From the NCBI GenBank assembly GCA_944382845.1, contig CALWNN010000007.1, positions 1-38,849 on the forward strand: a DNA stretch of 38,849 nucleotides, read 5' to 3'. This document shows positions 1-26,827 of this stretch, in pieces. The notes under the pieces are model-generated. The model was not told where the DNA came from. It made no database searches and worked only from the letters and a program-made list of their open reading frames with translations. Source of the DNA: an uncultured Clostridia bacterium (GTDB taxonomy: Bacteria > Bacillota > Clostridia > Oscillospirales > Ruminococcaceae). The position numbers and the translations under genes were made by a program. The number at the start of each line of letters is the position of its first letter. Position 1 is the first letter of the stretch.

Positions 1-182
1 TTAATCACGTTGCGACGAAAAGCAATCTGTCGCTGACTGCAGCAAGCTGCAGATAGGAGCTTTGCTCCTCAGGGTTTCAGTGGGGGATTAAAACCCCCAC
101 TGAAAAACTGAATGGAACCCTGCCTCCTATTGGAGGCAGACCTGCCGAATATTCGGCAGGGGGACATCGGCGACTTAGTTAT
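1..182 (-). repeat. Dispersed hairpin repeat, copy 1 (cut by window edge)
   Basis: Copy of the repeat family shared with five other intergenic places in the window, here in minus orientation (the conserved end ATAACTAAGTCGCCGATGT reads on the minus strand at 164-182). It carries five hairpins: CTGCAG/CTGCAG (37-52), GGAGC/GCTCC (56-68), a perfect 12-bp stem TTTCAGTGGGGG/CCCCCACTGAAA (75-105), TGCCTCC/GGAGGCA (121-138) and the perfect 20-bp palindrome CCTGCCGAATATTCGGCAGG (141-160). The other end is missing because the window begins inside the copy. Confidence 0.9.
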
Positions 183-277
183 AAAGCTTAAAATACAGTA
201 TAACAGCTTAATTTAAAATTGTAATATTTTTGTTAATAAGTTATAAAAACCGAAATACTTAAATCGAAAACGTTTGT

Positions 278-291
278 TGTAAACGATATCA
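278..291 (+). promoter_or_regulatory. Catabolite-responsive element (cre) candidate
   Basis: TGTAAACGATATCA matches the Gram-positive CcpA consensus TGWAANCGNTNWCA at every fixed position. It lies about 58 bases upstream of the -35 box of the solute-binding protein gene, so it would sit where cre sites often act as activators or distal repressor sites. That CcpA binds here is inference; no ccpA gene is in the window. Confidence 0.55.
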
Positions 292-348
292 GGTTTTCAA
301 TGTGCAAAATAACCAAAATCTCAAATGATTTATATTGCAAAATGACGA

Positions 349-377
349 TTGACGGAATTTTAAGTTTTTGATATTAT
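349..377 (+). promoter_or_regulatory. Promoter of solute-binding protein gene
   Basis: TTGACG (349-354), 17-base spacer, TATTAT (372-377). The predicted start near 384 gives an unusually long leader of about 115 bases. Confidence 0.7.
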
Positions 378-389
378 AAACTTAGGAAA

Positions 390-413
390 GGCACTTAAAA
401 AAGTGTCGTTTTT
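390..413 (+). promoter_or_regulatory. Terminator-like hairpin in leader
   Basis: GGCACTT, loop AAAA, AAGTGTC, then GTTTTT, starting only a few bases after the predicted transcription start. A second hairpin CGTCTG/CAGACG (451-471) precedes the ribosome binding site at 481-488. Together they could form an attenuator or a 5' stabilising structure; the role is inferred. Confidence 0.4.
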
Positions 414-498
414 CGGTTCTGGCCGAAATGTAATAATTCCGATTGTTTTACGTCTGAAGGAGATACAGACGGATATTTTGAAGGAGGTATACCACTTA

Positions 499-1944
499 AT
501 GAAACTTACAAAACGTGTTATTGCCGGTATGATCGCTGTTCTTTCGGCTTTCTCAGTTGTAGGCTGTGGAAAAGACGACGGCTCCGGCGATGGCGATAAG
601 GGCGCAGTTGCATTTACAGACGAACAGCAGAAGATAGTTGAAGAGCTTGCAAACAGCAGTACTCTCCCTGACAGAGAGCTTGCAAACAAAGAAATCAACT
701 GGTTCGGTCACTATGACCTCAACCCAAGCGAGGGAAAATCCGCAAGTGCAGATATTGAGCTTTTTAAGCTTAAATACGATGGAGTAATCAAGGATAACTC
801 AACTACATGGGAAACCAGATTCGACGATCTTGCAAAACTTGTTATAGCAGATACCGCACCGGATTTCTTTGCAGCGGATGACATGGACGTATTCCCTAAG
901 GGCGCTATCAGAGGAATGTTCCAGCCTATTGACGACTACATAGACTTTGACTCGGCTCTCTGGAGCGACGTTAAGACTGCCGCAGACGAGTTTGTATTCA
1001 ACGGCAACCACTACGTTGCACTTATTGAGGTTCAGCCTAATTTGGTTTGCGTTTATAACAGAGCTACAATTGATGCTGAGGGATATGAAGATCCTGCCGA
1101 GCTTTTTGCTAACGGCGAGTGGGATCTTGACATATTCTTTGAAATGTGCGAAAACTTTGTAGACCCTGATCAGGAAAAATATGCTCTTGACGGATACTGG
1201 TACGATGAAGCTATCCAGCAGACAACAGGTGTTCCGCTTATCGGTCTTGAAGACGGTAAGATCGTAAGCAACCTCGGAAGCGCTGAGATCGCTGTTATTG
1301 AAAACAGAATGTACGATGAAACAAGAAAGGGTATCGTATTCCCAAGAAAGGATAACAACTGGAAAACAAGAGGTTCAGGTCAGAACGGCGAAGGTCTTGG
1401 CGATGGAAAGACCCTCTTTATTCCTATCGGACTCTGGGCTCTTGAAGATGCTCCGGAGAAAACCAAGCTCTTCGGCGACATTGCCGCAGGCGAAGTTATG
1501 TTTGTTCCTATGCCTGACAACACAGACAACGAGCCTTACTATGTAAGCGCAAGAGTCAACGGTTACGTTCTTTGTACAGGTGCGCCTAACCCAGAGGGAT
1601 TTGCAGCTTACATGGATTGTAAGAGAGCATGTCTCCTTGACGAAGGCATCCAGCAGATCGGTGTAGAACAGCTCAAGAACGTTTACGGCTGGTCTGACGA
1701 AATGATTGAAATGAAAAAGACTATTTATGATATGTGTAAGGAAAACCCTGTATTTGAATTCTACAACGGTGTTGACGATCAGCTTTCTTCACTCTTCAAC
1801 AACACAATCAGTGCAGGTACAATGACAGAAGGCGAGGACGGCGCTACAACATGGACCGAGCTTGTTGGTCAAAACGAGAGTGCTGTTAATTACCTTGTAA
1901 ACCAGGCTAACACAGAGATTGCCAATAATACCGGTGCTAACTAA
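499..1944 (+). CDS. Extracellular solute-binding lipoprotein (ABC sugar uptake, family 1)
   Basis: Substrate-binding lipoprotein of a carbohydrate-type ABC importer, expected on the outer face of the membrane. The 481-residue protein has a Lys-rich start, a hydrophobic signal and a lipobox ending in Cys23 (VVGC), then a Gly/Asp-rich linker. The mature part looks like a family 1 solute-binding protein (aromatic and acidic binding-cleft residues, terminal helices). The start is ATG 499 behind a perfect AAGGAGGT at 481-488; the frame is open further upstream to a GTG at 403, but that part lacks signal features. It has its own promoter and terminator and no permease or ATPase of the sugar-importer type beside it, so its partners must be elsewhere. 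Ligand unknown; a sugar or oligosaccharide is inferred from the family and the cre site. Confidence 0.8.
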   Translation: MKLTKRVIAGMIAVLSAFSVVGCGKDDGSGDGDKGAVAFTDEQQKIVEELANSSTLPDRELANKEINWFGHYDLNPSEGKSASADIELFKLKYDGVIKDNSTTWETRFDDLAKLVIADTAPDFFAADDMDVFPKGAIRGMFQPIDDYIDFDSALWSDVKTAADEFVFNGNHYVALIEVQPNLVCVYNRATIDAEGYEDPAELFANGEWDLDIFFEMCENFVDPDQEKYALDGYWYDEAIQQTTGVPLIGLEDGKIVSNLGSAEIAVIENRMYDETRKGIVFPRKDNNWKTRGSGQNGEGLGDGKTLFIPIGLWALEDAPEKTKLFGDIAAGEVMFVPMPDNTDNEPYYVSARVNGYVLCTGAPNPEGFAAYMDCKRACLLDEGIQQIGVEQLKNVYGWSDEMIEMKKTIYDMCKENPVFEFYNGVDDQLSSLFNNTISAGTMTEGEDGATTWTELVGQNESAVNYLVNQANTEIANNTGAN

Positions 1945-1980
1945 TTTAAAGCTCAAAGTAAAACATATCAGATAACATTA

Positions 1981-2012
1981 AAGGGAAACCCGAAACCGGG
2001 CTTCCCTTTTTT
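1981..2012 (+). terminator. Rho-independent terminator of solute-binding gene
   Basis: 12-bp stem with one mismatch (AAGGGAAACCCG / CGGGCTTCCCTT), loop AAAC, followed by a T run. It makes the upstream gene a single-gene transcript. Confidence 0.85.
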
Positions 2013-2310
2013 GCTGTAATAGAGTTTGATTTGCCACACTCTTTGAAGAACCCAAGCTTTTCCGAGAAAATCGTCATAGGTTCGGGATTTAATACAAGGC
2101 ACCGTTGACTGCCGATTGCGAAATCATCGAAATTTTACGTGCGGATTTCGTAAAGGCTTTTACCCTTACTTAATAAGGCCCCTTCATGACCCGATTTATT
2201 TCTCTGTCAATTGACCGATTTCACAAAAAAACTGCTTCTTTTTTAGCTTAAGGGTTGAAAATAATAAATTTAATGTTACTATGCTGTTACGTATTTGTTT
2301 CTGAAATAAC

Positions 2311-2417
2311 TTTTTCAACAGGCATATAATTTAAAAATGTTGAAAACTCTGTTGAAAACGTTGAAAACTCAGCGTTTACAGTGAAAAAACAACGGGAGTT
2401 TTCAAAGCTTTCAACAC
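2311..2417. other. Cluster of TTGAAAAC motifs in the natA-like upstream region
   Basis: Three direct TTGAAAAC copies start at 2340, 2352 and 2361 (9-12 base steps) and inverted forms lie at 2314-2319 (TTTCAA), 2396-2405 (GAGTTTTCAA) and 2409-2415. TTGAAAACTC at 2361-2370 and GAGTTTTCAA at 2396-2405 form a perfect 10-bp inverted repeat. TGAAAACGTTGAAA (2353-2366) also matches the cre consensus except for one base. The rest of the 2013-2610 gap holds only AT-rich sequence and a promoter; no gene was recognised. Confidence 0.45.
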
Positions 2418-2514
2418 CTGTCCGAAAAATTACCCTCATTAAAATGTTGGCGAAAAAACTGCGAAAATTTTCTGTAAAACCTCGTTACAGAATTATTACA
2501 GATTCAAAATTTTG

Positions 2515-2543
2515 TTGCTTTTCTATATAAAATATGTTACTAT
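2515..2543 (+). promoter_or_regulatory. Promoter of ABC exporter operon
   Basis: TTGCTT (2515-2520), 17-base spacer, TACTAT (2538-2543), about 70 bases upstream of the ATPase start. Confidence 0.5.
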
Positions 2544-2613
2544 AAAGCGTGACCGTAATATGCTTGCGTTTATTAAAAACCAAAACACTACTATATTGTA
2601 AGGGGGATACCTT

Positions 2614-3360
2614 ATGTCAGAAAACGTTCTGGAAGTCAAAGGACTTTCAAAAATGTACAAAAAAGGGGTATATGCCGCCCATGATGTGACCTTTAATATC
2701 AAAAAAGGCGAAATATTTGCTCTTATAGGTCCAAACGGTGCGGGAAAAACCACTACTATCCGTATGATATCAACTCTTCTTACAGCTACCGAAGGCGACG
2801 CTGTAGTTGCAGGTCACAGCATACTTACAGACGCCGCAAAAGTAAGAGAAAATATTACTTATCTTCCCGACGAAGCGGGCGCTTACAAAACAATGAAGGG
2901 AATTGACTATCTTGATTTTATGGCAAAGCTTTATGCTCCGGATAAGAACCACGCTAAAGAGTATGTTGAAAGAGCAAAAGAGATTTGCGGACTGGGCGAC
3001 AGACTTTTCGATAAAATTGAAAGCTATTCAAGAGGTATGATAAGAAAACTTCTTCTTTCAAGAGCCGTTATGTCAAGACCTGCTCTTGCAATTCTTGACG
3101 AGCCTACAAGCGGACTGGATATCCTTAACGCTCTTGAAATAAGACGAATGATAAAAAAACTTGCCGCAGATGAAGGAATGAGCTTTTTGTTAAGCTCCCA
3201 CAATATGCTTGAGATAGAATTTGTTTCGGACAGAGTCGGAATAATTGCAAAAGGAAATCTTCTGGAAATCGGAACTCCTGAGGAACTTAAAGCAAAACAC
3301 AATGCCAAAAATCTTGAGGAAGTATTTGAAGGGATGGTGAAGAACAGTGAAATTTGCTAA
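2614..3360 (+). CDS. ABC transporter ATP-binding protein (NatA/CcmA-like)
   Basis: 248-residue nucleotide-binding subunit of an ABC-2 type exporter, acting at the inner face of the membrane with the permease encoded next. Walker A GPNGAGKT is at residues 39-46, the signature is the variant YSRGM instead of LSGGQ, and Walker B with the D-loop reads LAILDEPTSGLD. The length is typical of the NatA/YhaQ group. ATG 2614 follows AAGGGGG at 2600-2606. Its 3' end overlaps the permease start by 14 bases, implying translational coupling. Sodium export is the classical role of NatAB, but drug, peptide or lipid export is equally possible, so no symbol is given. Confidence 0.88.
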   Translation: MSENVLEVKGLSKMYKKGVYAAHDVTFNIKKGEIFALIGPNGAGKTTTIRMISTLLTATEGDAVVAGHSILTDAAKVRENITYLPDEAGAYKTMKGIDYLDFMAKLYAPDKNHAKEYVERAKEICGLGDRLFDKIESYSRGMIRKLLLSRAVMSRPALAILDEPTSGLDILNALEIRRMIKKLAADEGMSFLLSSHNMLEIEFVSDRVGIIAKGNLLEIGTPEELKAKHNAKNLEEVFEGMVKNSEIC

Positions 3361-4690
3361 CCTTTTCAGAAAGGAGCTTAAAGAGCTTCTTACACCATCA
3401 ACTATAATCACAACTATTGTTATGATGTTTGTCCTTGTTTTTGCCGGAAATGCTTTCGGCGGAATAATCGAGGACTCAGTTGAACAAATGTCGGTTATGA
3501 CCATTTGCGACAAGGATCAGAGCCAAATTTCAAAGGATCTTATAAAACAGCTTACCATAAGCGAAGTAGATGAAGAAACAGGCGCCGTTATATCCTACGA
3601 TGACAGCCTTGTGAAGCTTGTGGATATTCAGTCCGAGGACTACGCAAAGGAGCTTGAGAGGCTTGATGTCAATAATGCTATCATTATTCCCGAAGGCTTT
3701 GGCGACGCTCTTTTAAACGGCAAGGAATGTGAAATAATTTCAATTTCAAAAATGAGTTCCTCCGCAACCCTTTCAAATATTTCACTTAACGATTCCGCTG
3801 TAGAATCTATCCGGCAGATTGCAAAGACATTGTATATTGCTAACAAGGGAATTTCTCTTGAGGATATCGCAAAATCCGAAACATTGGTTACTGTTTCACC
3901 AATAACTATTGTTGCAGACAAAAGTGCTCCGGTTTCCTCTACTCTCATTTCTTCACTCACTTCAATGCAAAGTATGTTCGTACCAATCGTGGTGTATGTG
4001 CTTATAATGTTCTCATCCCAGCTTATTATGACTGCAATCTCAACGGAAAAGATCGACAAGACCCTTGAAACACTTCTGTCTGCGCCTGTGTCAAGACTTT
4101 CCGTGCTTCTTGCAAAAATGCTTGCCGCCGGAACAGTCGCCGCCTTTAATGCAATAGCTTACATGATCGGTTTCAGCCAGATGATGGGCTCTATGACTTC
4201 TGAACTGCCATCAGGGATAGATGCTGATAAATACTTAAGCGAATTAGGTCTTACCCTTTCATTTTCAGGATATATTCTTTTAGGACTTCAGCTTTTTGTT
4301 ACCGTGCTTATTACCCTTTCGGTTTCCCTTGTTCTCGGCGCTCTTGCAAAAGACGCAAAATCCGCACAGTCACTTCTTATGCCAATTATATTTATGGCAA
4401 TTATACCATATATTCTTTCAATGGTAATGGATCTTAAAGAATTAAACCCCATTCTCAGAATAATCGTCTACGCTATCCCGTTTACCCATACATTTACTGC
4501 CGCGGAAAACATCATGTTCTCAAATATGGGAATCTTCTGGGGAGGCTTTGCTTACCAGTGTATTCTTCTTGTTATCTGCATGGCGGTTGCGGTAAAGATA
4601 TTCACTACCGACAGGATTTTCACTGTTACCTTAAACTTCGGCGGAAAGAAAAGGGCAAAGAAGAATAAAACTCTAAGCGAGAACGAATAA
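3347..4690 (+). CDS. ABC-2 type permease (NatB-like)
   Basis: 447-residue membrane subunit matching the upstream ATPase. One membrane helix near residues 18-41 is followed by an extracytoplasmic domain of about 165 residues and then a cluster of hydrophobic helices from about residue 208 to 435, ending in a basic, Lys-rich cytoplasmic tail. This one-plus-several helix plan with a large first outer loop is characteristic of NatB/YhaP permeases. The start is a GTG inside the ATPase gene; no in-frame ATG fits better. Exported substrate unknown. Confidence 0.82.
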   Translation: MKFANLFRKELKELLTPSTIITTIVMMFVLVFAGNAFGGIIEDSVEQMSVMTICDKDQSQISKDLIKQLTISEVDEETGAVISYDDSLVKLVDIQSEDYAKELERLDVNNAIIIPEGFGDALLNGKECEIISISKMSSSATLSNISLNDSAVESIRQIAKTLYIANKGISLEDIAKSETLVTVSPITIVADKSAPVSSTLISSLTSMQSMFVPIVVYVLIMFSSQLIMTAISTEKIDKTLETLLSAPVSRLSVLLAKMLAAGTVAAFNAIAYMIGFSQMMGSMTSELPSGIDADKYLSELGLTLSFSGYILLGLQLFVTVLITLSVSLVLGALAKDAKSAQSLLMPIIFMAIIPYILSMVMDLKELNPILRIIVYAIPFTHTFTAAENIMFSNMGIFWGGFAYQCILLVICMAVAVKIFTTDRIFTVTLNFGGKKRAKKNKTLSENE

Positions 4691-4737
4691 CAAATATAAA
4701 CTATGATATCAAGGCAATCTAAGAAAGGAAATATCTT

Positions 4738-5820
4738 ATGATAAAAAATCTTTCAAAAAAGCTTAGTGCAATACTCATTGCCACTCTTATGCTTATTGCA
4801 AGCGGATGCACTGAAAATGACGACTCCTCAGGCTCAAAGCCCTCTGATTCATCAGACGGCGCTTTGACAACTACCGCCCCGGCAGAAACCTCTGCTCCGG
4901 ATACGTCAACCACCACCGCCTCACAAACCTCGTCAAATGACGATGACGACCCCGAAAAACCGCCTGCCGACGGCGAACCCTCAGGAATTACTCCTGCAAT
5001 GTGGAAAATTGAAACGGAAAAGGGCAACACCATCTATATGCTTGGTTCAATGCACGTTCTTCCCGATGAGGCTTATCCTTTGCCCGATATTATCATGGAC
5101 GTTTACGAAAATGCCGACGCCGTTGCGTTTGAATGCGATACCAATGCGTTTTTAGAAGATACTGAAGCCCTTAGCGAATACTACTCCATGATGCTATTAA
5201 GCGACGGAACGGTCAAAGACCACCTTGACGAAGATGTATACAACGGTATTGTTGAAAAGCTTACCGACTGGGGAGTTTATAATGTGACGTATGATTACTT
5301 CCACCCGGCAGTATGGAGTTCGCTTCTTGAAGAAACCATCAGCCAGAAAGCCCAGATGTATGCCGACAACGGAATAGATTACTATTTCCTTGACCTCTGC
5401 AAGGAGGACGGAAAGGAAATTATCGAAATTGAAAACGCAATGGATCAGATGAAATTGCTTTTTGGATTTTCAGATGAGTTTTACAACCTCCAGCTTAGTT
5501 CATATCTTAAATACTCCGACGATGAGATCGTTGAGCAGTACACGGAACTTTACAAGGCTTGGGCAGAGGGAAATGTTGATTCTTTAGCTGAAGAGGACAC
5601 AGAGGGTATGACCGAGGAGGAAATTGCCCTTGTGGAAGATTACAACAAAAAGCTTCTTGACGACAGAAATATCGGCATGGCAGATAAGATAGAAGAGCTT
5701 TGTCAGGGAGACAAGGACATTTTATACATGGTCGGAGCGGCTCACTTCCCCGGAGAAAACGGTATTTTAAGCCTTCTTGAACAAAAAGGCATTGAGTACG
5801 AAAGAGTTTCCTATGAATAA
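4738..5820 (+). CDS. TraB/GumN-family lipoprotein
   Basis: 360-residue lipoprotein: signal peptide with lipobox ASGC (Cys24), a Ser/Thr/Asp linker to about residue 82, then a TraB/PrgY/GumN domain. The two GxxH motifs of the TIKI/TraB superfamily are visible, GSMH (103-106) near the start of the domain and GAAH near the C-terminus, together with the conserved Glu in AFECD. Some relatives are metal-dependent peptidases and others inactivate pheromone signals, so an extracellular metallohydrolase is plausible but unproven. ATG 4738 follows GAAAGGAA. The gap of 47 bases to the permease gene would allow co-transcription. A strong terminator follows. Confidence 0.8.
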   Translation: MIKNLSKKLSAILIATLMLIASGCTENDDSSGSKPSDSSDGALTTTAPAETSAPDTSTTTASQTSSNDDDDPEKPPADGEPSGITPAMWKIETEKGNTIYMLGSMHVLPDEAYPLPDIIMDVYENADAVAFECDTNAFLEDTEALSEYYSMMLLSDGTVKDHLDEDVYNGIVEKLTDWGVYNVTYDYFHPAVWSSLLEETISQKAQMYADNGIDYYFLDLCKEDGKEIIEIENAMDQMKLLFGFSDEFYNLQLSSYLKYSDDEIVEQYTELYKAWAEGNVDSLAEEDTEGMTEEEIALVEDYNKKLLDDRNIGMADKIEELCQGDKDILYMVGAAHFPGENGILSLLEQKGIEYERVSYE

Positions 5821-5844
5821 TCAAAACAACTGAATATTATAAAA

Positions 5845-5886
5845 AAACACCTTTTCGCAATTATGTACGAAAAGGTGTTTATTTTT
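5845..5886. terminator. Bidirectional terminator between TraB-like gene and acpP
   Basis: Perfect 13-bp stem AAACACCTTTTCG / CGAAAAGGTGTTT around a 10-base loop, with T-rich sequence on the right and an A run on the left. It can end both the plus-strand lipoprotein transcript and the minus-strand fatty acid operon. Confidence 0.88.
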
Positions 5887-5914
5887 GCTTTGTTCTGTAC
5901 TTTTAAGCAGAGAA

Positions 5915-6136
5915 TCAAGCTTCAATAAGCTTAACGATATCTCCTACAGTCTTTACATTTTCAAACTGCTCGTCAGGAATTTCAATTCCAAACTCATCCT
6001 CGAAAGACATAACAAGGTCAGCAATGTCAAGAGAATCAGCGCCAAGATCTTCTGTGATAGAAGCTTCAAGTGTTACCTTATCCTCATCAACATCAAGCTG
6101 ATCAACGATAATTGCCTTTACTTTATCAAATACCAT
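5915..6136 (-). CDS. acpP: Acyl carrier protein
   Basis: 73-residue acidic carrier that holds growing acyl chains on a phosphopantetheine arm. The attachment serine is Ser35 in the motif GADSLD; the flanking helices II and III are typical. ATG 6136 follows GGAGGG. It is the last gene of the minus-strand fatty acid cluster, 78 bases after accA and directly before a strong terminator. In many Clostridia acpP lies beside fabH or fabD instead, so the order here is rearranged. Confidence 0.96.
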
Positions 6137-6214
6137 TTACATTCCCTCCATTCGTGGATTTTTCTATTAAAGCAAAGAGTTTTATTTTCACTTTGCATTA
6201 ATTGTCGCTAAGAA

Positions 6215-10270: not shown

Positions 10271-11509
10271 TTAATCCTTATATTTCTTAAAGCAGAGCGT
10301 TGCGTTGTGTCCTCCGAATCCGAGAGAATTTGAAAGTGCAACGTCAACGGTAGTATTTCTGTTTGCCTCCGTAACATAATCAAGGTCGCACTCAGGGTCG
10401 GGTGTTTCATAGCCCATAGTCCTGTGGATAAAGTCCTCTTTACAGGAAAGAGCAGTAACTATTGCTTCAACAGCCCCTGCCGCGCCTAAAAGGTGTCCTA
10501 TCATTGACTTTGTTGAATTTACAGGCACTTTATGAGCGACTTCCTCTCCAAGAGCGACTTTGATGGCTCTTGTTTCAAACTTGTCATTAAGACCTGTGGA
10601 GGTTCCGTGGGAGTTGATATAATTTACCTCTTCAGGCTTTACGCCTGCTTCCCCGATAGCAAGCTCGATAGCCTTTGCAGAGCCGGCTCCCTCAGGGTCG
10701 GGGCTTGTCATGTGGTAAGCGTCACCTGTTGCGCCGTAACCGCAAATCTCCGCATATATTTTAGCTCCTCTTGCCTTTGCGTGTTCAAGTTCTTCAAGAA
10801 TAAGTATTCCTGCTCCCTCGCCTAAAACAAATCCCTGTCTTTCAGCGTCGAAAGGAGTTGAACACTTATCAAGCCTGTCGGATTTTGAAAGAGCCTTCAT
10901 GTTATTGAAGCCGCCAAGAGTAAATTTTGTGATAACAGCTTCGCTTCCGCCACAGATACAAGCGTCAAGGTATCCGTCCTTTATTTTTCTGAAAGCCTCT
11001 CCGATAGCATGAGAGCCTGAAGCACACGCGGTAACTACAGGGAAGTTTGCTCCCTTAAATCCTGTTCTTATGGAGATCATGCCCCCTGCCATATTTGCAA
11101 TCATCATAGGAATAAAGAAAACCGAAATCCTGTCGGGACCTTTTTCAAGGAACTTGGTATGCTCAGTCTCTATCTGCTGAAGTCCTCCGATACCTGCGCC
11201 TACGATAACTCCCACTCTGAATGGATCAAGGTCTGAAAAATCAGTCTCGCTGTCCTTCAAAGCCTGATCTGCGGCATAAACAGCAAACTGGGTAAAGCGG
11301 TCCATTCTTCTTGCTTCCTTCTTTTCGATCACTCCCGTGTAGTCAAAATCCCTGACTGCGCCCACGATCTTGATATCAAAATCGCTTGCATCGAACTGAT
11401 CTATATATGAAAAGCCAAGCTTGTTCTCCTTGATATTTTCCCAGAATTCCGGAACATTCTTTCCAAGAGGATTTACTGTTCCCATACCTGTGATAACTAC
11501 TCTTTTCAT
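10271..11509 (-). CDS. fabF: Beta-ketoacyl-ACP synthase II
   Basis: 412-residue condensing enzyme that extends acyl-ACP with malonyl-ACP. The Cys-His-His triad is visible: Cys162 in VVTACASG, His in NSHGTST and His in GHLLGAAGA. The full thiolase fold is present and no domain is missing. ATG 11509 has AAAGGAATT upstream. Starts 24 bases after fabG ends. Confidence 0.97.
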   Translation of the reverse strand: MKRVVITGMGTVNPLGKNVPEFWENIKENKLGFSYIDQFDASDFDIKIVGAVRDFDYTGVIEKKEARRMDRFTQFAVYAADQALKDSETDFSDLDPFRVGVIVGAGIGGLQQIETEHTKFLEKGPDRISVFFIPMMIANMAGGMISIRTGFKGANFPVVTACASGSHAIGEAFRKIKDGYLDACICGGSEAVITKFTLGGFNNMKALSKSDRLDKCSTPFDAERQGFVLGEGAGILILEELEHAKARGAKIYAEICGYGATGDAYHMTSPDPEGAGSAKAIELAIGEAGVKPEEVNYINSHGTSTGLNDKFETRAIKVALGEEVAHKVPVNSTKSMIGHLLGAAGAVEAIVTALSCKEDFIHRTMGYETPDPECDLDYVTEANRNTTVDVALSNSLGFGGHNATLCFKKYKD

Positions 11510-12302: not shown

Positions 12303-12498
12303 TTTAAATCGGAGCAAAGCCGATTAAGCTTGTTTAAAATTGGCTGCAATGATTGCAACTCGTCGCAGTTTGTCCCTCAGGGATTTCAGTATGGAATTCC
12401 TAATAACCCCCACTGAAACTCCAACAGAAGGCTAACCCGTCTTATATGAGGCATACCCGCCGAATACTCAGCAGGGGGGACATCGGCGACTTGGTTAT
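12303..12498 (-). repeat. Dispersed hairpin repeat, copy 2
   Basis: Occupies most of the 243-base gap between the SGNH gene and fabG, in minus orientation. Both family ends are present: TTTAAATCGGAGCAAAGC at 12303-12320 and the ATAACCAAGTCGCCGATGT end at 12480-12498. The segment CGGAGCAAAGCCGATTAAGC is shared with copy 5 but not with copies 1 and 3. The central TTTCAGTGGGGG hairpin is degenerate here (one arm remains as CCCCCACTGAAA). Confidence 0.85.
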
Positions 12499-17835: not shown

Positions 17836-18684
17836 ATGAAAGGAAGATACGCTATTTTAGGAGGCTCTTTAAAGCATACCATGTCCCCTCCTATCCATGC
17901 AAGACTTTTTGAACTCAAAAACAGAGAATTTCAATATGAAATAATCGAAGCAGACGCTACGGAGCTTGAAAAAAAAGCCGACTACCTTAATTCTCTTGAC
18001 GGGTATAATATCACTATCCCTCACAAGGTGGAAATAATAAAATATATAGATGTTCTTGACAAGTCTGCGAAAAGATACAATTCCGTAAACTGCGTGTGCA
18101 GAAAAGACGGAAAGCTTACCGGCTTCAACACCGACTGCGATGGATTTTTAAGAACCATTTCTTCAATGGGGGTTTCACTTTCGGGAAAAGTTCTTCTTAT
18201 CGGCTGCGGAGGCGTGGGAAGAATGATGGCTATAGAATCCGCCCTCGAAGGAGCAGAGCTGTACATTGCCGTGCTTCAAAGCGATATTCCTCTTGCCGTA
18301 CAAGTCAAAAAAGAAATTCTCGAAACAAAACCTGACGCAAAAATAAATATTGTATTGAACACCGAAATTGACACCGGAATAAAATACGACCTTCTTATGA
18401 ATGCCTGCCCTGTGGGAATGTACCCGAAAACTGACGCTTGCCCCGTAAGCGATGAAGTTATTGCCACTTGTGAAGCAGTTTTTGAAGTTATCTACAATCC
18501 GAGAGAAACTCTTCTTATGAAAAAAGCAAGAGCTATGGGCAAAAACTGTCAGGGCGGAATGGCTATGCTTGTATGGCAGGCAGTATCTGCTCACGAAATA
18601 TGGGACGGGGATACTTATTCAGACGAAGAAGTGTCAAAGATAATTGCCGAAATGGAAGAAAAGGTGGAAAAGGATTTCAGATAA
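17836..18684 (+). CDS. aroE: Shikimate dehydrogenase
   Basis: 282-residue NADP-dependent enzyme of the shikimate pathway. The substrate-binding segment is at the N-terminus (LGGSLKHTMSPPIHARLF), catalytic Lys lies in YNITIPHK, Asp in GFNTDCDGF, and the Rossmann loop is GCGGVG. The C-terminal GGMAMLVWQA is conserved. ATG 17836 after AAGGAGATG. Fourteen bases separate it from aroK, which performs the next step. Confidence 0.92.
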   Translation: MKGRYAILGGSLKHTMSPPIHARLFELKNREFQYEIIEADATELEKKADYLNSLDGYNITIPHKVEIIKYIDVLDKSAKRYNSVNCVCRKDGKLTGFNTDCDGFLRTISSMGVSLSGKVLLIGCGGVGRMMAIESALEGAELYIAVLQSDIPLAVQVKKEILETKPDAKINIVLNTEIDTGIKYDLLMNACPVGMYPKTDACPVSDEVIATCEAVFEVIYNPRETLLMKKARAMGKNCQGGMAMLVWQAVSAHEIWDGDTYSDEEVSKIIAEMEEKVEKDFR

Positions 18685-18698
18685 AAGGAGAGAAAAAC

Positions 18699-19208
18699 AT
18701 GAAAAGCGTGTTTTTATGTGGCTTTATGGGTTGCGGAAAGTCAACGGCAGGCAGAATACTTGCAAAAAATCTCGGTCTATCCTTTTTTGATCTTGACGAA
18801 TATATCGAAAAAAAAGCAGAAATGAAAATTTCCGAAATATTCAAAAAATACGGCGAAGAGCATTTCCGTAAGCTTGAAAGCATGGCCATAAGCGACTTCA
18901 AGGATAAAACCGGAGTCATTGCCACAGGCGGAGGAGCCCTTCTTTCGGAACAAAACAGCAATCTTGCAAACAGCTTTGGAATTACTGTTTTTATCGATGT
19001 TCCCTTTGAAGTATGCTACAGTCGTATAAAAGGCGATATCCGCAGACCTATTGCTTATAATTCCACAAAGGAACAGCTTAAAGAGCGATTTGACTTTCGT
19101 TATCCGCTTTACAGATCCCATAGTCTTATTACCGTTTCCGGAAGCGGCTCGCCGGGGCATATTGCCAAACAGATAGCAGAAGCTATTGCCGGATCAAAAC
19201 GGATTTAA
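18699..19208 (+). CDS. aroK: Shikimate kinase
   Basis: 169-residue P-loop kinase phosphorylating shikimate. Walker A is GCGKST within GFMGCGKSTAG; the shikimate-binding DLDEYIE and the GGGA loop (ATGGGALL) are in place. ATG 18699 follows AAAGGAGAG; the frame is open upstream into aroE but that part is not coding. The last codons run into repeat copy 3: the stop codon TAA is part of the repeat end TTTAAATCGG, so the C-terminus may have been trimmed or altered when the repeat arrived. Confidence 0.93.
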   Translation: MKSVFLCGFMGCGKSTAGRILAKNLGLSFFDLDEYIEKKAEMKISEIFKKYGEEHFRKLESMAISDFKDKTGVIATGGGALLSEQNSNLANSFGITVFIDVPFEVCYSRIKGDIRRPIAYNSTKEQLKERFDFRYPLYRSHSLITVSGSGSPGHIAKQIAEAIAGSKRI

Positions 19209-19330
19209 ATCGGAGCAAAGCTCCTATCTGCAGCTTGCTGCAGTCAGCGACAGATTGCAATCGTCGCAACGTGATTAAGTCTGTCTGCCGAAAAGCAGAC
19301 ACCCTTATCAACGCTTTGCTCCGATTTAAA
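19204..19330 (+). repeat. Dispersed hairpin repeat, copy 3 (with perfect 18-bp terminal inverted repeats)
   Basis: 127-base form bounded by TTTAAATCGGAGCAAAGC (19204-19221) and its exact reverse complement (19313-19330). Inside it shares the GGAGCAAAGCTCC and CTGCAGCTTGCTGCAG hairpins and the CGACAGATTGCAATCGTCGC segment with copies 1 and 4, but lacks the TTTCAGTGGGGG and CCTGCCGAATATTCGGCAGG hairpins and the ATAAC end. It lies between aroK and the SGNH lipoprotein gene. Confidence 0.88.
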
Positions 19331-20987: not shown

Positions 20988-21007
20988 AAAGTCGGGAAAT
21001 AAAATAA

Positions 21008-21037
21008 CCGCTGCCAAAAAACAGCAGCGGCATTTTT
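21008..21037. terminator. Bidirectional terminator
   Basis: CCGCTGC, 9-base loop, GCAGCGG, then CATTTTTT on the plus strand and an AT-rich tail on the minus strand. It separates the convergent zinc-ribbon and CAP protein genes. Confidence 0.85.
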
Positions 21038-21055
21038 TATTTATATAAATTGAAA

Positions 21056-22528
21056 TTATCCCGCAAAAATCATTACCCAGTAATAAATTCCGTCTGATTT
21101 AAAATACCCTATTCCACAGTGAGTGTAATTAGTGGAAAGAAGCGCCTCCCTGTGTCCCATGGTCGAACTCATCCATGCGTCGATTGCCTCTTTGGGAGAG
21201 CCTTGTCCGTAAGCGATATTTTCAGCGGCTGTATAAAAGATGCCCATTTCAAAAACTTTTGAGAGTATCGTTGTGCCGTCGGGTCTTGTATGGGAAAAAT
21301 AATCTGAAATCTCTTCCGCCCTTATCATTGCATATTTGTGAAGAGTTTTATCCTCAACAAGAGAACTTGCTCCCACTGCTTTTCTCTCGGCATTTGCATA
21401 TTTTAAAACTTCTTTGCAAACCGAACCTGGAGTATCTTTATCAACAGCTGTAGTTGTTGTTGTGGTGGTAACCCAAGTCTTTTTGGAGGTCGTAACCACA
21501 GGACTGTCTGTTTTGGCAGGAGAAGTCTCTTTTGACTGTATTGTGACAACCGCAGGCTTTGTTGACTGAATATAATTCTTGCTTACAAACCCTGTCTCAG
21601 AATTGTATTTAACAGCATACCAGTTTCCGCTTTCACCAATCACCTGAACAGACTGACCTTCCGAAAGAACGCCGAGCTTACTATATGTATTTCCCGCTCC
21701 GCTTCTGACATTAACAGCACTTTTAGCGTACATCGTCTTTTGTGACACCGGCGTGTAAAGTGTTGCCGGAGAAGTTGAAGCAGGCTTTCCCGCCGAAGAA
21801 GCCGTTGTTGTTACAACAGGCTTGGCAGAAGATTTTGTCGCTTTTGATGTGGAAACCGTATGCTTTACCGGAGTCGTGGGAACGGCGGTTACGCTTGCTG
21901 TCTGCACCGAAGTGCTTACAGATGTTGAAACAGAAGCTTCCGTGCTTTCCTGCTGTTCTTCCGAAATCTTTTTCACGGCCTCTCTGAATCTTTTTATATC
22001 TTCATGAATTTCAGTAACGTCAACTGGATTTTCACCGCTCGGATCAAGTCCGTTTTGTATTACGTACAAATAAAGCTCACCGGTTTTATTTTCGATGTCG
22101 TTCCATATTTCATAAACCTCCGGATAAGACTCGCTCATTCCTTTCATAGTCTGAGAAATAACTTCCATTTCTTCAGCCAACATATCAAATCTTATCTTCA
22201 GATCAGCTCCGTCTGTTTCCTCTCCTTCAGAGGTTTTTCCTGTTTGCGTATAACATTTTATTTCGTTTACGACCTTGCCCCACAAATTGTTTTCAAGCCA
22301 CTGTTCAACGTCGGTAAAATCAAGTCCTGCGGAATCGATTCCCAAAGGCACACCCTCAAGCAGCTTTGATAAACTGTCCGAAACAGCAATCGGCGCAGTA
22401 GTATTGCTGCCTGAACCTGAATTACTGCCATTTCTGTCGGAAACGCTGCTGCAGCCTACCGCAAAAAGACAACACATTCCGGCAGCGCATATACCTACCG
22501 CAGCTTTTTTTATATTGTGAATATTCAT
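21056..22528 (-). CDS. CAP-domain lipoprotein with SH3b domain
   Basis: 490-residue surface lipoprotein. Lipobox AVGC (Cys26); a helical region to about 200; a Ser/Thr/Val-rich linker; a bacterial SH3 (SH3b) domain around 270-330 with the typical VNVRSGAGNTYSKLG and GNWYAVKY; a Thr-rich linker; and a C-terminal CAP (SCP/PR-1-like) domain from about 370 with the His in FSHTRPDG, Glu in AENIA and GHREAL. SH3b domains commonly bind cell-wall peptides; the role of bacterial CAP domains is mostly unknown. ATG 22528 follows AAAGGAGA. The gene has a consensus promoter of its own. Confidence 0.87.
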   Translation of the reverse strand: MNIHNIKKAAVGICAAGMCCLFAVGCSSVSDRNGSNSGSGSNTTAPIAVSDSLSKLLEGVPLGIDSAGLDFTDVEQWLENNLWGKVVNEIKCYTQTGKTSEGEETDGADLKIRFDMLAEEMEVISQTMKGMSESYPEVYEIWNDIENKTGELYLYVIQNGLDPSGENPVDVTEIHEDIKRFREAVKKISEEQQESTEASVSTSVSTSVQTASVTAVPTTPVKHTVSTSKATKSSAKPVVTTTASSAGKPASTSPATLYTPVSQKTMYAKSAVNVRSGAGNTYSKLGVLSEGQSVQVIGESGNWYAVKYNSETGFVSKNYIQSTKPAVVTIQSKETSPAKTDSPVVTTSKKTWVTTTTTTTAVDKDTPGSVCKEVLKYANAERKAVGASSLVEDKTLHKYAMIRAEEISDYFSHTRPDGTTILSKVFEMGIFYTAAENIAYGQGSPKEAIDAWMSSTMGHREALLSTNYTHCGIGYFKSDGIYYWVMIFAG

Positions 22529-22592
22529 CGCCGCCGAATCTCCTTTCCAAAAAACCAAAAATAATCAAGGCAATCGACCATTCTACATACTA

Positions 22593-22621
22593 ATTATATA
22601 ATCAAATCTTTTTTCTGTCAA
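22593..22621 (-). promoter_or_regulatory. Consensus promoter of CAP/SH3b gene
   Basis: Minus strand TTGACA (22621-22616), exactly 17 bases, TATAAT (22598-22593): a perfect vegetative promoter, with the start codon about 65 bases downstream. Confidence 0.88.
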
Positions 22622-22716
22622 CAATCTTAATCAGTTCATTTCAGACAAAAAAACACCCGAATTTTTGTAAAAAAATTTTTTACTTAAAACTTTGTAAATT
22701 CAATTTCAAAACAGGT

Positions 22717-23529
22717 CTATCTGAGATGCTTTTTGTAGAATCTCTCAGTAATTTTTATCGGCATGACAAACAGAAAAAGCTGGGCTGCGCAGGGAATAAG
22801 AAAATCGGTAAATCCCGAAAAACCCCGTCTGAAATTTCTCCACCTTACTTCAATAAACGATCTTGTGTTTTTCCAGTTTCTGCGCCTGCCGTAGTTTTCG
22901 GCAGTTACTCTGTAATCAACAAGTATCTCGTTTGTATTTGCGCTTTTCTTCCCTGCCATCAGCATTCTGCACACAAAATCGTAGTCCTCGCATCTTTGAT
23001 CCTCGTTAAAGCCGCCGATATCAATAACAGCCGACTTTCGTACTGCAATGGACGGATTGTTTATAGGATTTCTCCGCTTTGCATATTTTATAATTTCCTC
23101 ATGAGTAAGCGGAACTTTCTTAACTGCTATCTTTTCCCCGGTGTCCGAGTCAAATTCTTCGATATAGCCTCCCGCCATCATAAGCTCACTGTCCTTTTCA
23201 AACATATTTACTTGTTTTTCACAGCGGTAAGGACGGCATATATCATCGCTGTCACACTTTAAAATAAGCTCGTTTTTGCAGGTTTTTATGCCGATATTCG
23301 CAGCAGAGGCAGTACCCACATTCTTTTCAACATACACAGGCTTGAAAGTATCCTTGAATTTTTCCTTGTATCCGTCAATTACCCTGTATAGCTCCCCGGT
23401 AAGCTTTCCATCGCATACAAGAACCACCTCGGAGGGAAAAAGTGTCTGAGAAAAAACGCTTTCAAGACATTTGTCTAAAAATTCCGGTTTCTCTTTTTCA
23501 TAAACGGAAATAAGCATACTGTAGTCCAT
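22717..23529 (-). CDS. Family 2 glycosyltransferase
   Basis: 270-residue GT-A-fold glycosyltransferase of the EpsE/WcaA type. It starts MDYSMLISVY and has the nucleotide-sugar segment SVFSQTLFPSEVVLVCDG, the metal-binding motif KCDSDDICRP (DxD) and the acceptor-side CEDYDFVCRML. A short basic, hydrophobic C-terminus may touch the membrane. Start: ATG 23529 with AGGAGA upstream fits the family N-terminus; ATG 23571, 14 codons earlier, has no binding site. Its neighbour across the divergent gap is a sugar transferase, so a role in surface polysaccharide assembly is inferred. Confidence 0.83.
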   Translation of the reverse strand: MDYSMLISVYEKEKPEFLDKCLESVFSQTLFPSEVVLVCDGKLTGELYRVIDGYKEKFKDTFKPVYVEKNVGTASAANIGIKTCKNELILKCDSDDICRPYRCEKQVNMFEKDSELMMAGGYIEEFDSDTGEKIAVKKVPLTHEEIIKYAKRRNPINNPSIAVRKSAVIDIGGFNEDQRCEDYDFVCRMLMAGKKSANTNEILVDYRVTAENYGRRRNWKNTRSFIEVRWRNFRRGFSGFTDFLIPCAAQLFLFVMPIKITERFYKKHLR

Positions 23530-23664
23530 AATTTTACAAAATTCTCCTGTTTTGATTCCTAAAATTTTCATTTTTAATTATTATAAAACCTTTTGGAAGT
23601 CTTGTCAATCGCCTGTAAAATTAATCGGAAAACTGCATAAAATAATTATTCCTTTTAAATTCAC

Positions 23665-23693
23665 TTGAAAAATATATCGAAAGCTGTTATAAT
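23665..23693 (+). promoter_or_regulatory. Promoter reading through repeat copy 4 into the sugar transferase gene
   Basis: TTGAAA (23665-23670), 17 bases, TATAAT (23688-23693). The predicted transcription start (about 23700) lies in the first bases of repeat copy 4, so the repeat forms nearly all of a leader of about 210 bases. Confidence 0.75.
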
Positions 23694-23858
23694 ATAACCA
23701 AGTCGCCGATGTCCCCCTGCCGAGTATTCGGCAGGTCCGCCTAATATGAGGCAGGGTTCCATTCAGTTTTTCAGTGGGGGTTTAATCCCCACTGAAAAAC
23801 TGAGGAGCAAAGCTCCCATTTGCAGCTTGCTGCAGTAAGCGACAGATTGCAACCGTCG
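23694..23858 (+). repeat. Dispersed hairpin repeat, copy 4
   Basis: Plus orientation, beginning ATAACCAAGTCGCCGATGTCCCC right behind the promoter -10 box. Contains the CCTGCCGAGTATTCGGCAGG, CAGTGGGG/CCCCACTG, GGAGCAAAGCTCC and CTGCAGCAAG-type hairpins and ends in CGACAGATTGCAACCGTCG; the GCTTTGCTCCGATTTAAA end is missing. An unrelated small stem CGGGTGAAATTTTCCCG follows. Confidence 0.88.
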
Positions 23859-23910
23859 GGTGAAATTTTCCCGATACAGCGGTTTTGTTGCTGCGAAAGG
23901 ATGAAAACTT

Positions 23911-25335
23911 ATGTCAAACAGAGAACAGTTCAAGCGGATAATAGTGTTTTTCGCTTCGCTGGTGCTTATATTTTGTGTGTCGGCAAGCTTCAGCTTTGTA
24001 TGGCACAACCTTTACAATAGTCATTTTGGTGAAAAAATAGGCGAAACCTACTTTTTCTGGCAGAGGGGAAATTTTCTTCTGGTGTGCGTATATATGTTTG
24101 TGTATGCGATTTTTGCAAGGACATTCAACGGATTCCGTGTAGGATATCTTAAAACCGCCGGTCTTATCGGCTCACAGGTGCTTGCTCTCATTGCTGCAAA
24201 CTTTGTTACATACCTTCAGATATCCCTTATTGGACGAGCTCTCGTAAACGTTACCCCAATAATGATTCTTACCGCATATCAGGCGGTAATCGCTGCCATA
24301 TGGGCATTCGGAGCAAACTATGTTTATTCTAAAATTTATCCTCCGAGAAAAATGATAATCGTTTACGGAAACACAAGTGCAAGAGATCTTGTTGACAAGA
24401 TGAGCAGCAGAGTTGACAAGTACATTATATGCTCTTCGATTTCAATTGCCGAAGATATCGAGGTAATAAAGAAACATATACTTGAGTATGAAGCTGTTAT
24501 CATATGCGATGTTCCGTCGCCTATAAGAAACCAGCTTTTAAAATTCACTTACGACAGGTCCATACGCACATATCTTACGCCGAAAATATCGGATGTTATA
24601 ATAAGAGGTGCAGATGAAATAAACCTTTTTGACACTCCCCTGCTTTTAAGCCGTAATTTGGGACTTACCTTTGAACAGAGGATATTAAAAAGGATTCTTG
24701 ACCTTGTTCTTTCCCTTGTTGCGTTCATTATTGCAAGCCCCTTTATGCTTGTTACCGCCCTTGCAATAAAGCTTTACGACAGAGGGCCTGTGCTTTATTC
24801 TCAGGAGCGTCTTACTTTAAACGGCAAGGTGTTTAAGGTATACAAGTTCAGAAGCATGATAGTAAACGCTGAAAAGGACGGAGTTGCACGGCTTGCAAAG
24901 GAGCATGACAGCAGAATAACTCCTGTGGGAAAGATTATAAGAAAAATAAGATTTGACGAGCTTCCTCAGCTTTTCAACATATTAAAGGGCGATATGTCCT
25001 TTGTAGGTCCAAGACCCGAAAGACCATCTATTGCCGAGCAGTACGAGCAATCTATTCCGGAGTTCAGATACAGGCTTAAGGCAAAGGCGGGACTTACCGG
25101 ATACGCTCAGGTAATGGGCAAATACAATACTACTCCATACGACAAGCTAAAGCTTGATCTCATGTACATTGAAAACCAGTCGGTGCTTCTTGACCTGAAA
25201 ATACTGTTTCTCACAATAAAGACGATATTTATCCCGGAAAGCACAGAAGGAGTCACGGCAGATACTGCGGCTCCTGCCGAAAATGTCAAGGTAGAACCTG
25301 CAGGCACAAAAAGCCATAACGAAATAAAGTTATAA
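23911..25335 (+). CDS. Polyprenyl-phosphate sugar phosphotransferase (exopolysaccharide priming enzyme)
   Basis: 474-residue membrane enzyme that transfers a sugar 1-phosphate to undecaprenyl phosphate, the first step of an exopolysaccharide or capsule repeat unit. Four membrane helices lie within residues 1-125, a CoA-binding-like domain follows, a further helix is near 268-290, and the C-terminal bacterial sugar transferase domain has YKFRSM, RKIRFDELPQL and the catalytic stretch FVGPRPERP, plus KAGLTGYAQV. It resembles WbaP/WcaJ/CpsE. ATG 23911 with GAAAGG upstream. The stop codon TAA is part of repeat copy 5 (ATAAC). Confidence 0.92.
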   Translation: MSNREQFKRIIVFFASLVLIFCVSASFSFVWHNLYNSHFGEKIGETYFFWQRGNFLLVCVYMFVYAIFARTFNGFRVGYLKTAGLIGSQVLALIAANFVTYLQISLIGRALVNVTPIMILTAYQAVIAAIWAFGANYVYSKIYPPRKMIIVYGNTSARDLVDKMSSRVDKYIICSSISIAEDIEVIKKHILEYEAVIICDVPSPIRNQLLKFTYDRSIRTYLTPKISDVIIRGADEINLFDTPLLLSRNLGLTFEQRILKRILDLVLSLVAFIIASPFMLVTALAIKLYDRGPVLYSQERLTLNGKVFKVYKFRSMIVNAEKDGVARLAKEHDSRITPVGKIIRKIRFDELPQLFNILKGDMSFVGPRPERPSIAEQYEQSIPEFRYRLKAKAGLTGYAQVMGKYNTTPYDKLKLDLMYIENQSVLLDLKILFLTIKTIFIPESTEGVTADTAAPAENVKVEPAGTKSHNEIKL

Positions 25336-25528
25336 CTAAGTCGCCGATGTCCCCCTGCCGAATATTCGGCAGGTCTGCCTCATATTAGGCGGGTTTAATT
25401 CAGAATTTCAGTGGAGGGCGTCAGGTAATCCCAACCTGAACCCCCCCTGATGAGCAATGTTGACTGTGGCGATTGCGATCGTTGCCGCCAAGTTTAGGCA
25501 AGCTTAATCGGCTTTGCTCCGATTCAAA
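25332..25528 (+). repeat. Dispersed hairpin repeat, copy 5
   Basis: Full-length plus-orientation copy running from ATAACTAAGTCGCCGATGT (25332) to GCTTTGCTCCGATTCAAA (25511-25528), filling most of the gap between two genes. It keeps CCTGCCGAATATTCGGCAGG; its middle has diverged from copies 1 and 4, and AAGCTTAATCGGCTTTGCTC is shared with copy 2. Confidence 0.88.
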
Positions 25529-25582
25529 AGCATAGCATAAAAAGTAAAATATTTTTACAGCATAATCAAAGAGGTAATTTTC

Positions 25583-26716
25583 ATGTTAAACAAAAACGGA
25601 GGAGACAGATTCTCAAAGCTCCAGAAATACGAACCAATCATTGCAGGCGCGGCTTTATTTATAGGTCTCGCCTTGCTTGCGGCATATATTATAACCTTTG
25701 TTATCAAGACAAACAACGATGCAGAGCAGTTTATAACAAAAACGTCAAGCGCTTTTTATGAAAACACCTCTATTGAAAAATTTTTCGATTTTGAATCTCT
25801 TGACATTTCCGTTTCTGCCGACGGCTCAGAAATAGTAGAAACGGTTGAGCTTTTCGAGGGGGTATACCTTACTGCGGACAGCAGGGGCGTAACAGTTCTT
25901 GTAGACGAAAACAGCAAACTTATAAAGTCGTCTGTTTTTGTTGCCGATAACGGCGACAGAATAAACGCATATTCAAATGAAAACGGAGTAACATTCGCAT
26001 CAGAGGGAAGCAATATTAAGGAATTTACCTTAAACGGTTATAATTTTGTAATTGACGATGACAAAAAAGTAACCGTTGACGGGTACAAGCTTATATCAGA
26101 CTCGTCGGCTGTTCCTGTGACGACAACTGCTCAGACGACGACAGTTCCGGAAACAACTACCGTGCCCGAAACAACGACTGTTCCCGAAACATCGGGAATT
26201 GAAGGCTCTGATACCAAAACTGCTACGACAACGACTGCAACAACAACTACAACCACAGTTGCTACAACGACCACTCCTGCTCCTACCACTACCACTACCA
26301 AGAAAACGACTGTGACCACTCAGTACAACACCAGCGATGAAATGATCGCAGAGGTTCTCAAGCTTGTAAACGAGGAGAGAAAAAAAGCCGGACTTTCTCC
26401 GCTTTCCGGACTTATTGCTCTTGACAAGGCAGCCCAGATAAGAGCCGGCGAGATCACCGGTGCGGATTCAAACTTCTCCCACACAAGACCAAGCGGAAAG
26501 CAGTGGTACACCGTGCTTGATGAAAACTACATTTGCTACACTGCGGCAGGAGAAAATCTGGCAGCAGGTCAGTCTACTGCCGAAATAGTAGTTTCCGAAT
26601 GGATGGCATCCCCCGATCACAGAGCAAACATTCTTGAACCCGAATTCAAATACATGGGTGTAGGATACGTGGAATATGACGGCTATCTTTACTGGGCGCA
26701 GCTGTTTTTAAGCTGA
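25583..26716 (+). CDS. Membrane-anchored CAP-domain protein with Thr-rich linker
   Basis: 377 residues. A short cytoplasmic N-terminus is followed by one membrane span (about 19-41, uncleaved anchor), an outer beta-rich domain of about 130 residues, a linker of near-repeats VPETTT and Thr runs (about 185-245) and a C-terminal CAP domain with FSHTRPSG, AGENLA and PDHRANIL. The CAP domain is similar to that of the protein at 21056-22528. The linker probably spans the cell wall. ATG 25583 follows GAGGTAATT. Function of the CAP domain unknown. Confidence 0.87.
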   Translation: MLNKNGGDRFSKLQKYEPIIAGAALFIGLALLAAYIITFVIKTNNDAEQFITKTSSAFYENTSIEKFFDFESLDISVSADGSEIVETVELFEGVYLTADSRGVTVLVDENSKLIKSSVFVADNGDRINAYSNENGVTFASEGSNIKEFTLNGYNFVIDDDKKVTVDGYKLISDSSAVPVTTTAQTTTVPETTTVPETTTVPETSGIEGSDTKTATTTTATTTTTTVATTTTPAPTTTTTKKTTVTTQYNTSDEMIAEVLKLVNEERKKAGLSPLSGLIALDKAAQIRAGEITGADSNFSHTRPSGKQWYTVLDENYICYTAAGENLAAGQSTAEIVVSEWMASPDHRANILEPEFKYMGVGYVEYDGYLYWAQLFLS

Positions 26717-26729
26717 CCTTAAAAATTTC

Positions 26730-26827
26730 AAATCGGAGCAAAGCTCCTCAGTTTTTCAGTGGGGGATTAAAACCCCCACTGAAACCCTGCCGAATATTCG
26801 GCAGGGGAACATCGGCGACTTGGTTAT
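26730..26827 (-). repeat. Dispersed hairpin repeat, copy 6 (compact form)
   Basis: 98-base minus-orientation form with both family ends (AAATCGGAGCAAAGC at 26730-26744; ATAACCAAGTCGCCGATGT on the minus strand at 26809-26827) and only three hairpins: GGAGC/GCTCC, TTTCAGTGGGGG/CCCCCACTGAAA and CCTGCCGAATATTCGGCAGG. The CTGCAG hairpin and GCCTCC hairpin are missing. Confidence 0.9.

Follow-up and report, generated by a model that had tools for sequence, protein, structure and literature searches.

The window described here comprises 38,849 bp of DNA from an uncultured Clostridia bacterium of the family Ruminococcaceae and starts at base 1 of contig CALWNN010000007.1, which is C7 among the 93 contigs (2.14 Mb) of the home genome, G000. 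When named genomes were scanned with the protein encoded at 25583-26716, a single distant hit resulted (Ruminococcus sp. RGIG6843, 36% identity), so that the host can be called Ruminococcus-like only tentatively. Six related intergenic repeats had been noted in its first 27 kb by a first-pass annotation, and all six places do hold related sequence. They belong to a family of short, non-coding DNA elements with fixed, asymmetric termini (TTTAAATCGG...GGTTATA), two conserved arms, and arm tips that carry ordered hairpins which can be dropped or expanded.

Copy 2 (12303..12498, + strand) is complete, with its left end at 12303-12320 and its right end at 12481-12498, and is flanked by a short-chain dehydrogenase gene on one side and a GDSL lipase gene on the other, both on the - strand. 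Copy 5 (25332..25528, - strand) is also complete, and at its right end it overlaps with the stop codon (TAA) of the sugar transferase gene at 23911-25335. Copy 6 (26727..26827, + strand) is a short complete form of 101 bp. Both fixed ends, first ascribed to all six copies, are present only in these three. Copy 1 (1..182, + strand; right end 165-182) is cut on its left side by the contig end, and the TTAATCACGTTGCGACGA that appears to end it is an internal module in other copies. Copy 3 (19204..19330), to which no strand was assigned, has two inverted left ends, at 19204-19221 (+) and 19313-19330 (-), and no right end; the stop codon of the shikimate kinase open reading frame (ORF) at 18573-19208 falls within its TTTAA. 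Copy 4 (23694..23858, - strand) has a right end at 23694-23711; its left end was not found. The bounds first given were kept, except that copy 6 starts at 26727 and not at 26730 and that the left 'end' of copy 1 is the end of the contig. The even division of three copies per strand was not confirmed: judged by right ends, three copies lie on the + strand and two on the -, copy 3 having none. The window copies lie kilobases apart, in both orientations and with unequal lengths, and are not clustered regularly interspaced short palindromic repeats (CRISPR), as had been stated. A transposase had been noted as absent, and Pfam detected none in the nine window proteins scanned, with the other window genes left out.

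The two ends were searched in the whole G000 genome at ≤3 mismatches, with the reversed patterns as controls. The left end (TTTAAATCGGAGCAAAGC) was found at 157 sites, compared with 2 for its control, and the right end (CATCGGCGACTTGGTTAT) at 151, again compared with 2. Counts so far above the reversed controls exclude chance, and the family is present at roughly 150 or more places in G000, not only at the six of the window. From 105 stretches chosen for holding copies (369,666 bases, 17% of G000), 85 complete copies were extracted. Their length is 85-319 bp (median 191), and their G+C content is 0.47 versus 0.32 in the 40-nt flanks. Many contigs of G000 (C2, C13, C20, C25, C48, C55, C63, C72, C84 and the window contig) start inside a copy or within about 300 bp of one. 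The contig breaks at copies are probably caused by the repeats themselves, which makes the copy number a lower bound; numbers of such repeats in draft genomes are probably underestimated. With about one copy per 14 kb, the family is a main shaper of spacers and assembly gaps in this genome. Overlap with a called gene (home-made gene caller) exceeds 40 nt in 6 of 142 copies. Intragenic insertion was considered and set aside: a loose filter returned nine cases with joined flanks, none of them convincing; in two of the nine, C34:17277 and C84:9562, more than 200 nt are open on either side.

Complete copies begin sharply at TTTAAATCGG. The first base is T in 85/85, the terminal TT is conserved at 100 and 98%, and the next base outward is no more conserved than background. 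At the right end, GGTTAT shows 80-100% conservation per base (TTAT 98-100%) and is followed by A in 84% of copies and then by background. The consensus of 58 aligned copies folds into two arms. Arm A consists of the left end paired with the central CTTAATCACGTTGCGACGA, and arm B of the central AACC.GTCGC(T/C)GA paired with the right end, TCGGCGAC-TT-GGTT; the ends thus pair with two adjacent central segments, one each. In copy 1 the arm B strands, as read off the sequence, are located at 29-36 (GTCGCTGA) and 167-174 (TCGGCGAC). Copies with a single arm and the same termini exist as well; where arm B alone is present, the termini are nearly inverted, TTTAAACC...GGTTATA.

The original description of the hairpin modules holds. 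Their order is (a)n or (b)n, X, G, g, M or t, K(n), J, P or p, where X is one strand of arm A and the remaining modules are hairpins. This order holds in 84 of the 85 complete copies, the sole exception being C65:5587 (PJ). Units a and b never occur together in one copy, nor do M and t; a is expanded in tandem up to 4 times and b up to 6. There are 67 different module strings among the 85 copies, and 7 copies have no recognized module. The M hairpin is located at 76..104 on the + strand of copy 1 (TTCAGTGGGGGATTAAAACCCCCACTGAA) and at 26755-26783 in copy 6. The g hairpin followed by TCAGTTTTT occurs in 19 of the complete copies.

The letters of the right end are scarce outside the home genome: at ≤2 mismatches they occur 135 times in G000 and 0-2 times in each of 60 relatives, so the relatives have other letters. 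One full copy was matched at E≤0.01 by 15 of 298 genomes of the bacterial family. Eighteen loci were read, the matches of G036, G211 and G304 being left out, and the layout is present in 16 of them, from nine genomes besides G000; the other two are chance-like or unclear. Arm B pairs at -12.9 kcal/mol with its own strand versus -6.7 kcal/mol with strands of other genomes (12 rows, 9 genomes), and arm A at -18.7 versus -12.9 kcal/mol (10 rows, 7 genomes). For neither arm was any of 20,000 permutations as good. The arm B test left out L074, in which the partner strand is not evident, and the near-duplicates L077, L087, L089 and L091; the arm A test left out the loci of G152, G314 and G205, in which no arm A was recognized, together with L070 and L074. 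Relatives in other genera keep the arm pairing despite different letters, and the selection on structure suggested for the window copies is borne out by this conservation of stems with compensatory change. With arm letters that change between genera and pairing that is retained, these elements provide natural compensatory mutants for studying how folded DNA may be recognized and moved. A search of 394 genomes of the order for an M-hairpin pattern gave 6 with a match, of which four belong to other families. Twelve M-hairpin loci were read (one cut by a sequence end, one without the left part), ten of them from the four other-family genomes; nine of these ten end in (A/G)TTATA and one in GCTATA. 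As read from the sequences, the layout recurs with other letters in further genera and families of the order. Folded as single-stranded DNA, copy 6 is much more stable than shuffled versions of itself (z -7.1). A right-end variant, CATGGGCGACTTGGTTAT, was observed in G000 at C8:7991-8008, C2:20955-20972 and C2:59443-59460. The arms of the C8 copy are CGCCCATGACC/GGTCATGGGCG, changed yet paired, so that pairing seems to be kept with new letters within the home genome too.

Copies occur in unrelated surroundings. The six closest full-length pairs in G000 are 91-94.5% identical and have unrelated flanks. Copy 2 is absent from the orthologous spacer of the same-genus genomes G001 and G002, its flanks being 241 nt (254 nt) apart in G000 and 13 nt apart in G001 (36 in G002). 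Copy 5 is absent in three relatives, where the spacer of 247 nt in G000 measures 21 (G001), 17 (G002) and 24 nt (G003); G001, without copy 5, has TATAA at the homologous stop codon. A copy of G314 is likewise missing from the orthologous spacer in G118 and G205, and a copy of G152 from that in G678, G280 and G006, while G226 carries a different insertion there. No clear target-site duplication was found in the 85 copies: the best of 132 offsets gave a 3-nt match in 8 copies and a 4-nt match in 7, which is 3-5 above shuffles, and a 6-nt match in at most 2. A flanking repeat is present in none of six G152 copies that are 95-100% identical to one another. Three head-to-tail junctions read GA, AG and GG before TTTAAATCGG, which is consistent with insertion into the TTATA of a copy already in place, and a 2-nt TT duplication fits these junctions as well as no duplication. 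A right-left junction of the element would read GGTTTAAATCGG. Targeting of promoters was rejected, as no -35 enrichment was seen 15-19 nt upstream of TATAA (n=85). At C3:54052-54241 and C51:18595-18730 copies are located in the loop of an apparent terminator hairpin split by the insertion.

Taken together, the six places are probably members of a non-autonomous family of mobile DNA that is recognized by its structure and inserts beside TATAA. The comparison with miniature inverted-repeat transposable elements (MITEs) made in the first-pass annotation holds for the spread to some 150 or more copies, the sharp ends, the unrelated flanks and the element-free orthologous spacers, and fails for MITEs in the strict sense, as detailed below. 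An enzyme supplied in trans would recognize the arms in folded form, with single-stranded DNA as the likeliest state and a cruciform as the alternative, and insertion would take place beside TATAA (right-to-left strand) with no duplication or one of at most 2 nt. The tips could vary freely because only the bases of the arms and termini would be read. Copies would persist mainly in intergenic spacers, and their frequent position immediately before ribosome-binding sites or after stop codons would follow from target choice and purifying selection without serving a function. It is suggested, tentatively, that the family may represent a class of mobile elements in several families of the order, with a covarying two-arm single-strand fold recognized instead of terminal repeats, duplication-free insertion beside TATAA and an enzyme not recognizable as Y1.

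Several results weigh against structure-recognized mobility beside TATAA. Neither an autonomous partner nor an associated enzyme came to light, the one enzyme family searched for being the Y1 transposase (PF01797). Of the 13 genomes searched, three have a PF01797 match: that of G293 is free of stops, that of G000 is broken and that of G152 is a fragment. Among ten inspected carriers three have a match, stop-free in one, compared with 128 of 298 genomes of the family. An exact empty site was not recovered in related species, their intergenic DNA being too diverged, and the target rule is therefore based on a single homologous site plus the three tandem junctions. In the pairing test the strands were chosen by eye, and the own strand ranked first in only 7 of 12 arm B rows. 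Folding of copy 2 as DNA gave z -1.9, with 7 of 200 shuffles as good. RNAalifold returned an empty structure for the 58 aligned copies (a structure for 5 copies, a poor one for 15); the fold was hence taken from the consensus and tested by the cross-genome permutation. Correction by replication slippage could in part keep hairpins perfect. The orientation bias of copies in G000 had hinted at replication-coupled insertion, and is not relied on because G256 shows none.

Elements of the IS200/IS605 type have no terminal inverted repeats and no target duplication, insert beside a fixed short sequence and show an orientation bias with respect to the replication strand. A narrower version of the proposal, possible though doubtful, regards the family as a relic or active derivative of this type, moved REPIN-like on the lagging-strand template by a Y1 HUH transposase acting in trans. 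The two-arm copies agree with it in lacking terminal inverted repeats and a clear duplication, in having hairpins near both ends, and in the apparent short fixed sequence beside the insertion (TATAA at one homologous site). So does orientation in G000, where copies on the same contig point the same way in 197 of 265 pairs (shuffle mean 50%, maximum 61% in 2000 shuffles), and where 55 of 66 copies run counter to the distant gene majority of their contig, as do 15 of the 19 whose local genes diverge or converge. However, local and distant gene direction conflict for only four copies, two each way, and are largely confounded. The G256 genome, with 42 left ends in a 7-contig assembly, has neither clustering of orientation (18 of 40 switches, shuffle mean 20.4) nor a bias relative to genes (11 opposed versus 10 same among the 21 co-directional of 30 loci). 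G152 has copies 95-100% identical and yet only the Y1 fragment. As a general partner Y1 was rejected, being absent or broken in 9 of the 10 inspected carriers (7 without any match), and given this scarcity it is regarded as not associated. The Y1 loci, including that of G293 and a broken IS200-type copy with internal stops at G000:C31:251-484 (L239), do not show the element's ends by eye.

Repetitive extragenic palindromes (REPs) end in a GTAG-type tag, and REPINs are inverted pairs of such short REPs with a linked gene for a REP-associated tyrosine transposase (RAYT), as set out in PMC3116915 and PMC3733652. According to the same papers the REPIN/REP group is likewise non-autonomous, hairpin-forming, extragenic and of high copy number, with mobilization in trans proposed, and CGTC REPs have also been described as lacking a dedicated transposase. 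The present family differs in having no tag (its termini are TTTAAA and GGTTATA), in its length of 85-319 bp, and in the paucity of RAYT/Y1 genes noted above.

A classical DDE-type MITE, in which a 2-bp TT or TA duplication is hidden in TTATA and the transposase belongs to an unseen insertion sequence, is a rather unlikely alternative. The near-inverted termini of the arm-B-only copies speak for it, these alone approaching terminal inverted repeats, as does the equal fit of a TT duplication to the tandem junctions. In two-arm copies, by contrast, the left end TTTAAATCGGAGC and the reverse complement of the right end, TATAACCAAGTCG, are unlike by eye, and the would-be target bases are almost invariant, which is unusual for a 2-bp target. 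Neither an ORF-bearing version nor an autonomous parent was recognized in the 17% of G000 examined or at those of the unpaired left ends that were inspected; three wide-spaced pairs of ends (C2, C2 and C3), in which two left ends have an unpaired right end on their own strand 1.9-4.8 kb away, were not read through. Two such pairs of same-strand left and right ends with no nearer partner are C2:20955-22897 (1.9 kb) and C3:29441-32699 (3.3 kb); both may be remnants of a longer element. Bacterial MITEs such as Correia/NEMIS, RUP and ERIC have inverted repeats at their termini and, as a rule, duplicate their target, a combination not seen here. They are otherwise comparable in being short, intergenic and of high copy number and in that they may alter neighboring transcripts, in part as described in PMC3049150 (see also the MITE review PMC10969869).

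That the family is an RNA element of the host, acting as 5' leader, intercistronic structure or weak terminator and spread by its usefulness, is improbable, and the initial suggestion of RNA structures that punctuate transcripts gains little or no support. Positional evidence speaks for such a role. A Shine-Dalgarno-like motif of the leftward gene lies within 40 nt of the left end in 26 of 85 copies (3 in the wrong sense), compared with only 5 and 6 such motifs near the right side; the stop of the right-side gene overlaps the right end by 4 nt in 14 of 53 genes; and of the 142 copies examined in G000, 69 lie between called genes of one direction, which 55 of them oppose. A promoter-like site at 23665..23693 on the + strand (TTGAAA, 17 nt, TATAAT; a consensus match only, 11/12) directly adjoins the right end of copy 4, so that copy 4 may serve as 5' leader of the sugar transferase gene. 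Six terminator-like sites were predicted in 23500-27000, compared with 3.3 (standard deviation 2.0) in shuffles, two of them inside copies 4 (23817-23803, - strand) and 6 (26735-26747, + strand), and the hairpin of these two, g, is the one followed by TCAGTTTTT in 19 of the 85 complete copies. The mismatches of the stems, scored on the left-to-right strand of the 58 home copies, give a different picture. Only arm B leans to G.T (60 versus 39 A.C), as punctuation of transcripts would have it. The total is 166 G.T versus 181 A.C cells, with 19 versus 25 in arm A and 87 versus 117 in the tips; 23 pairs favor G.T, 35 A.C, and 23 are equal. With G.T about equal to A.C overall, no consistent sign sets either strand apart as a selected RNA, and an RNA role gains little from the stems. 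Furthermore, copies in G000 mostly oppose genes, which places the TCAGTTTTT tail on the untranscribed sense, copies are absent beside orthologous genes, and G256 lacks the gene-orientation bias. A match to an annotated family, named at the outset as a result that would speak against a new one, was not obtained: the window had 0 matches to Rfam 15 at gathering score, and one copy searched at E up to 1 gave three sub-threshold, chance-like matches (best E 0.005, an archaeal small RNA). An effect of the copies on transcripts is possible, whatever spreads them. Passive palindromes produced by replication slippage with no dedicated mobility would account for the tandem expansion of hairpins to 4 or 6 units, and are very improbable in view of the sharp common termini at 85 G000 sites, the unrelated flanks and the absence at orthologous sites.

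Among known repeats, the nearest are BOX elements in design and REPINs in logic. Integron attC sites have RYYYAAC...GTTRRRY boxes flanking single-gene cassettes; the right end GTTATAA does not fit them, and the copies are dispersed on both strands (an integrase was not searched for). The BOX elements of Streptococcus have the plan boxA-boxB(n)-boxC, parasitic spread has been proposed for them, and their terminal repeats resemble those of ISSpn2, according to PMC3049150. The composite plan of fixed ends and variable internal modules is also that of the present family, and as in BOX elements the copies are small, intergenic and numerous, with a variable hairpin interior that makes few contacts with the ends. 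Compared by design and not by sequence, the family differs in that each end pairs with an adjacent central segment and in its roughly ten ordered module types; a partner comparable to ISSpn2 is not known for this family. It is best placed among the small composite interspersed repeats, apart from REPINs, strict MITEs and, by description only, BOX. Plasmids and phages (blastn) gave no match, viral contigs (pattern scan) no exact match to the right end, and the listings of open-access PMC searches no report of the family. The missing enzyme is a concrete target, and should be common to carriers in several families. A second kind of repeat, whose long inverted ends read ACTAATAACCATTT...ATGGATAAA, was reached through the flanks of G152 copies at L299 (G226:C61, about 2250-2480) and L304 (G226:C98, about 10800-10950); the C61 repeat shares its spacer with the G152 element.

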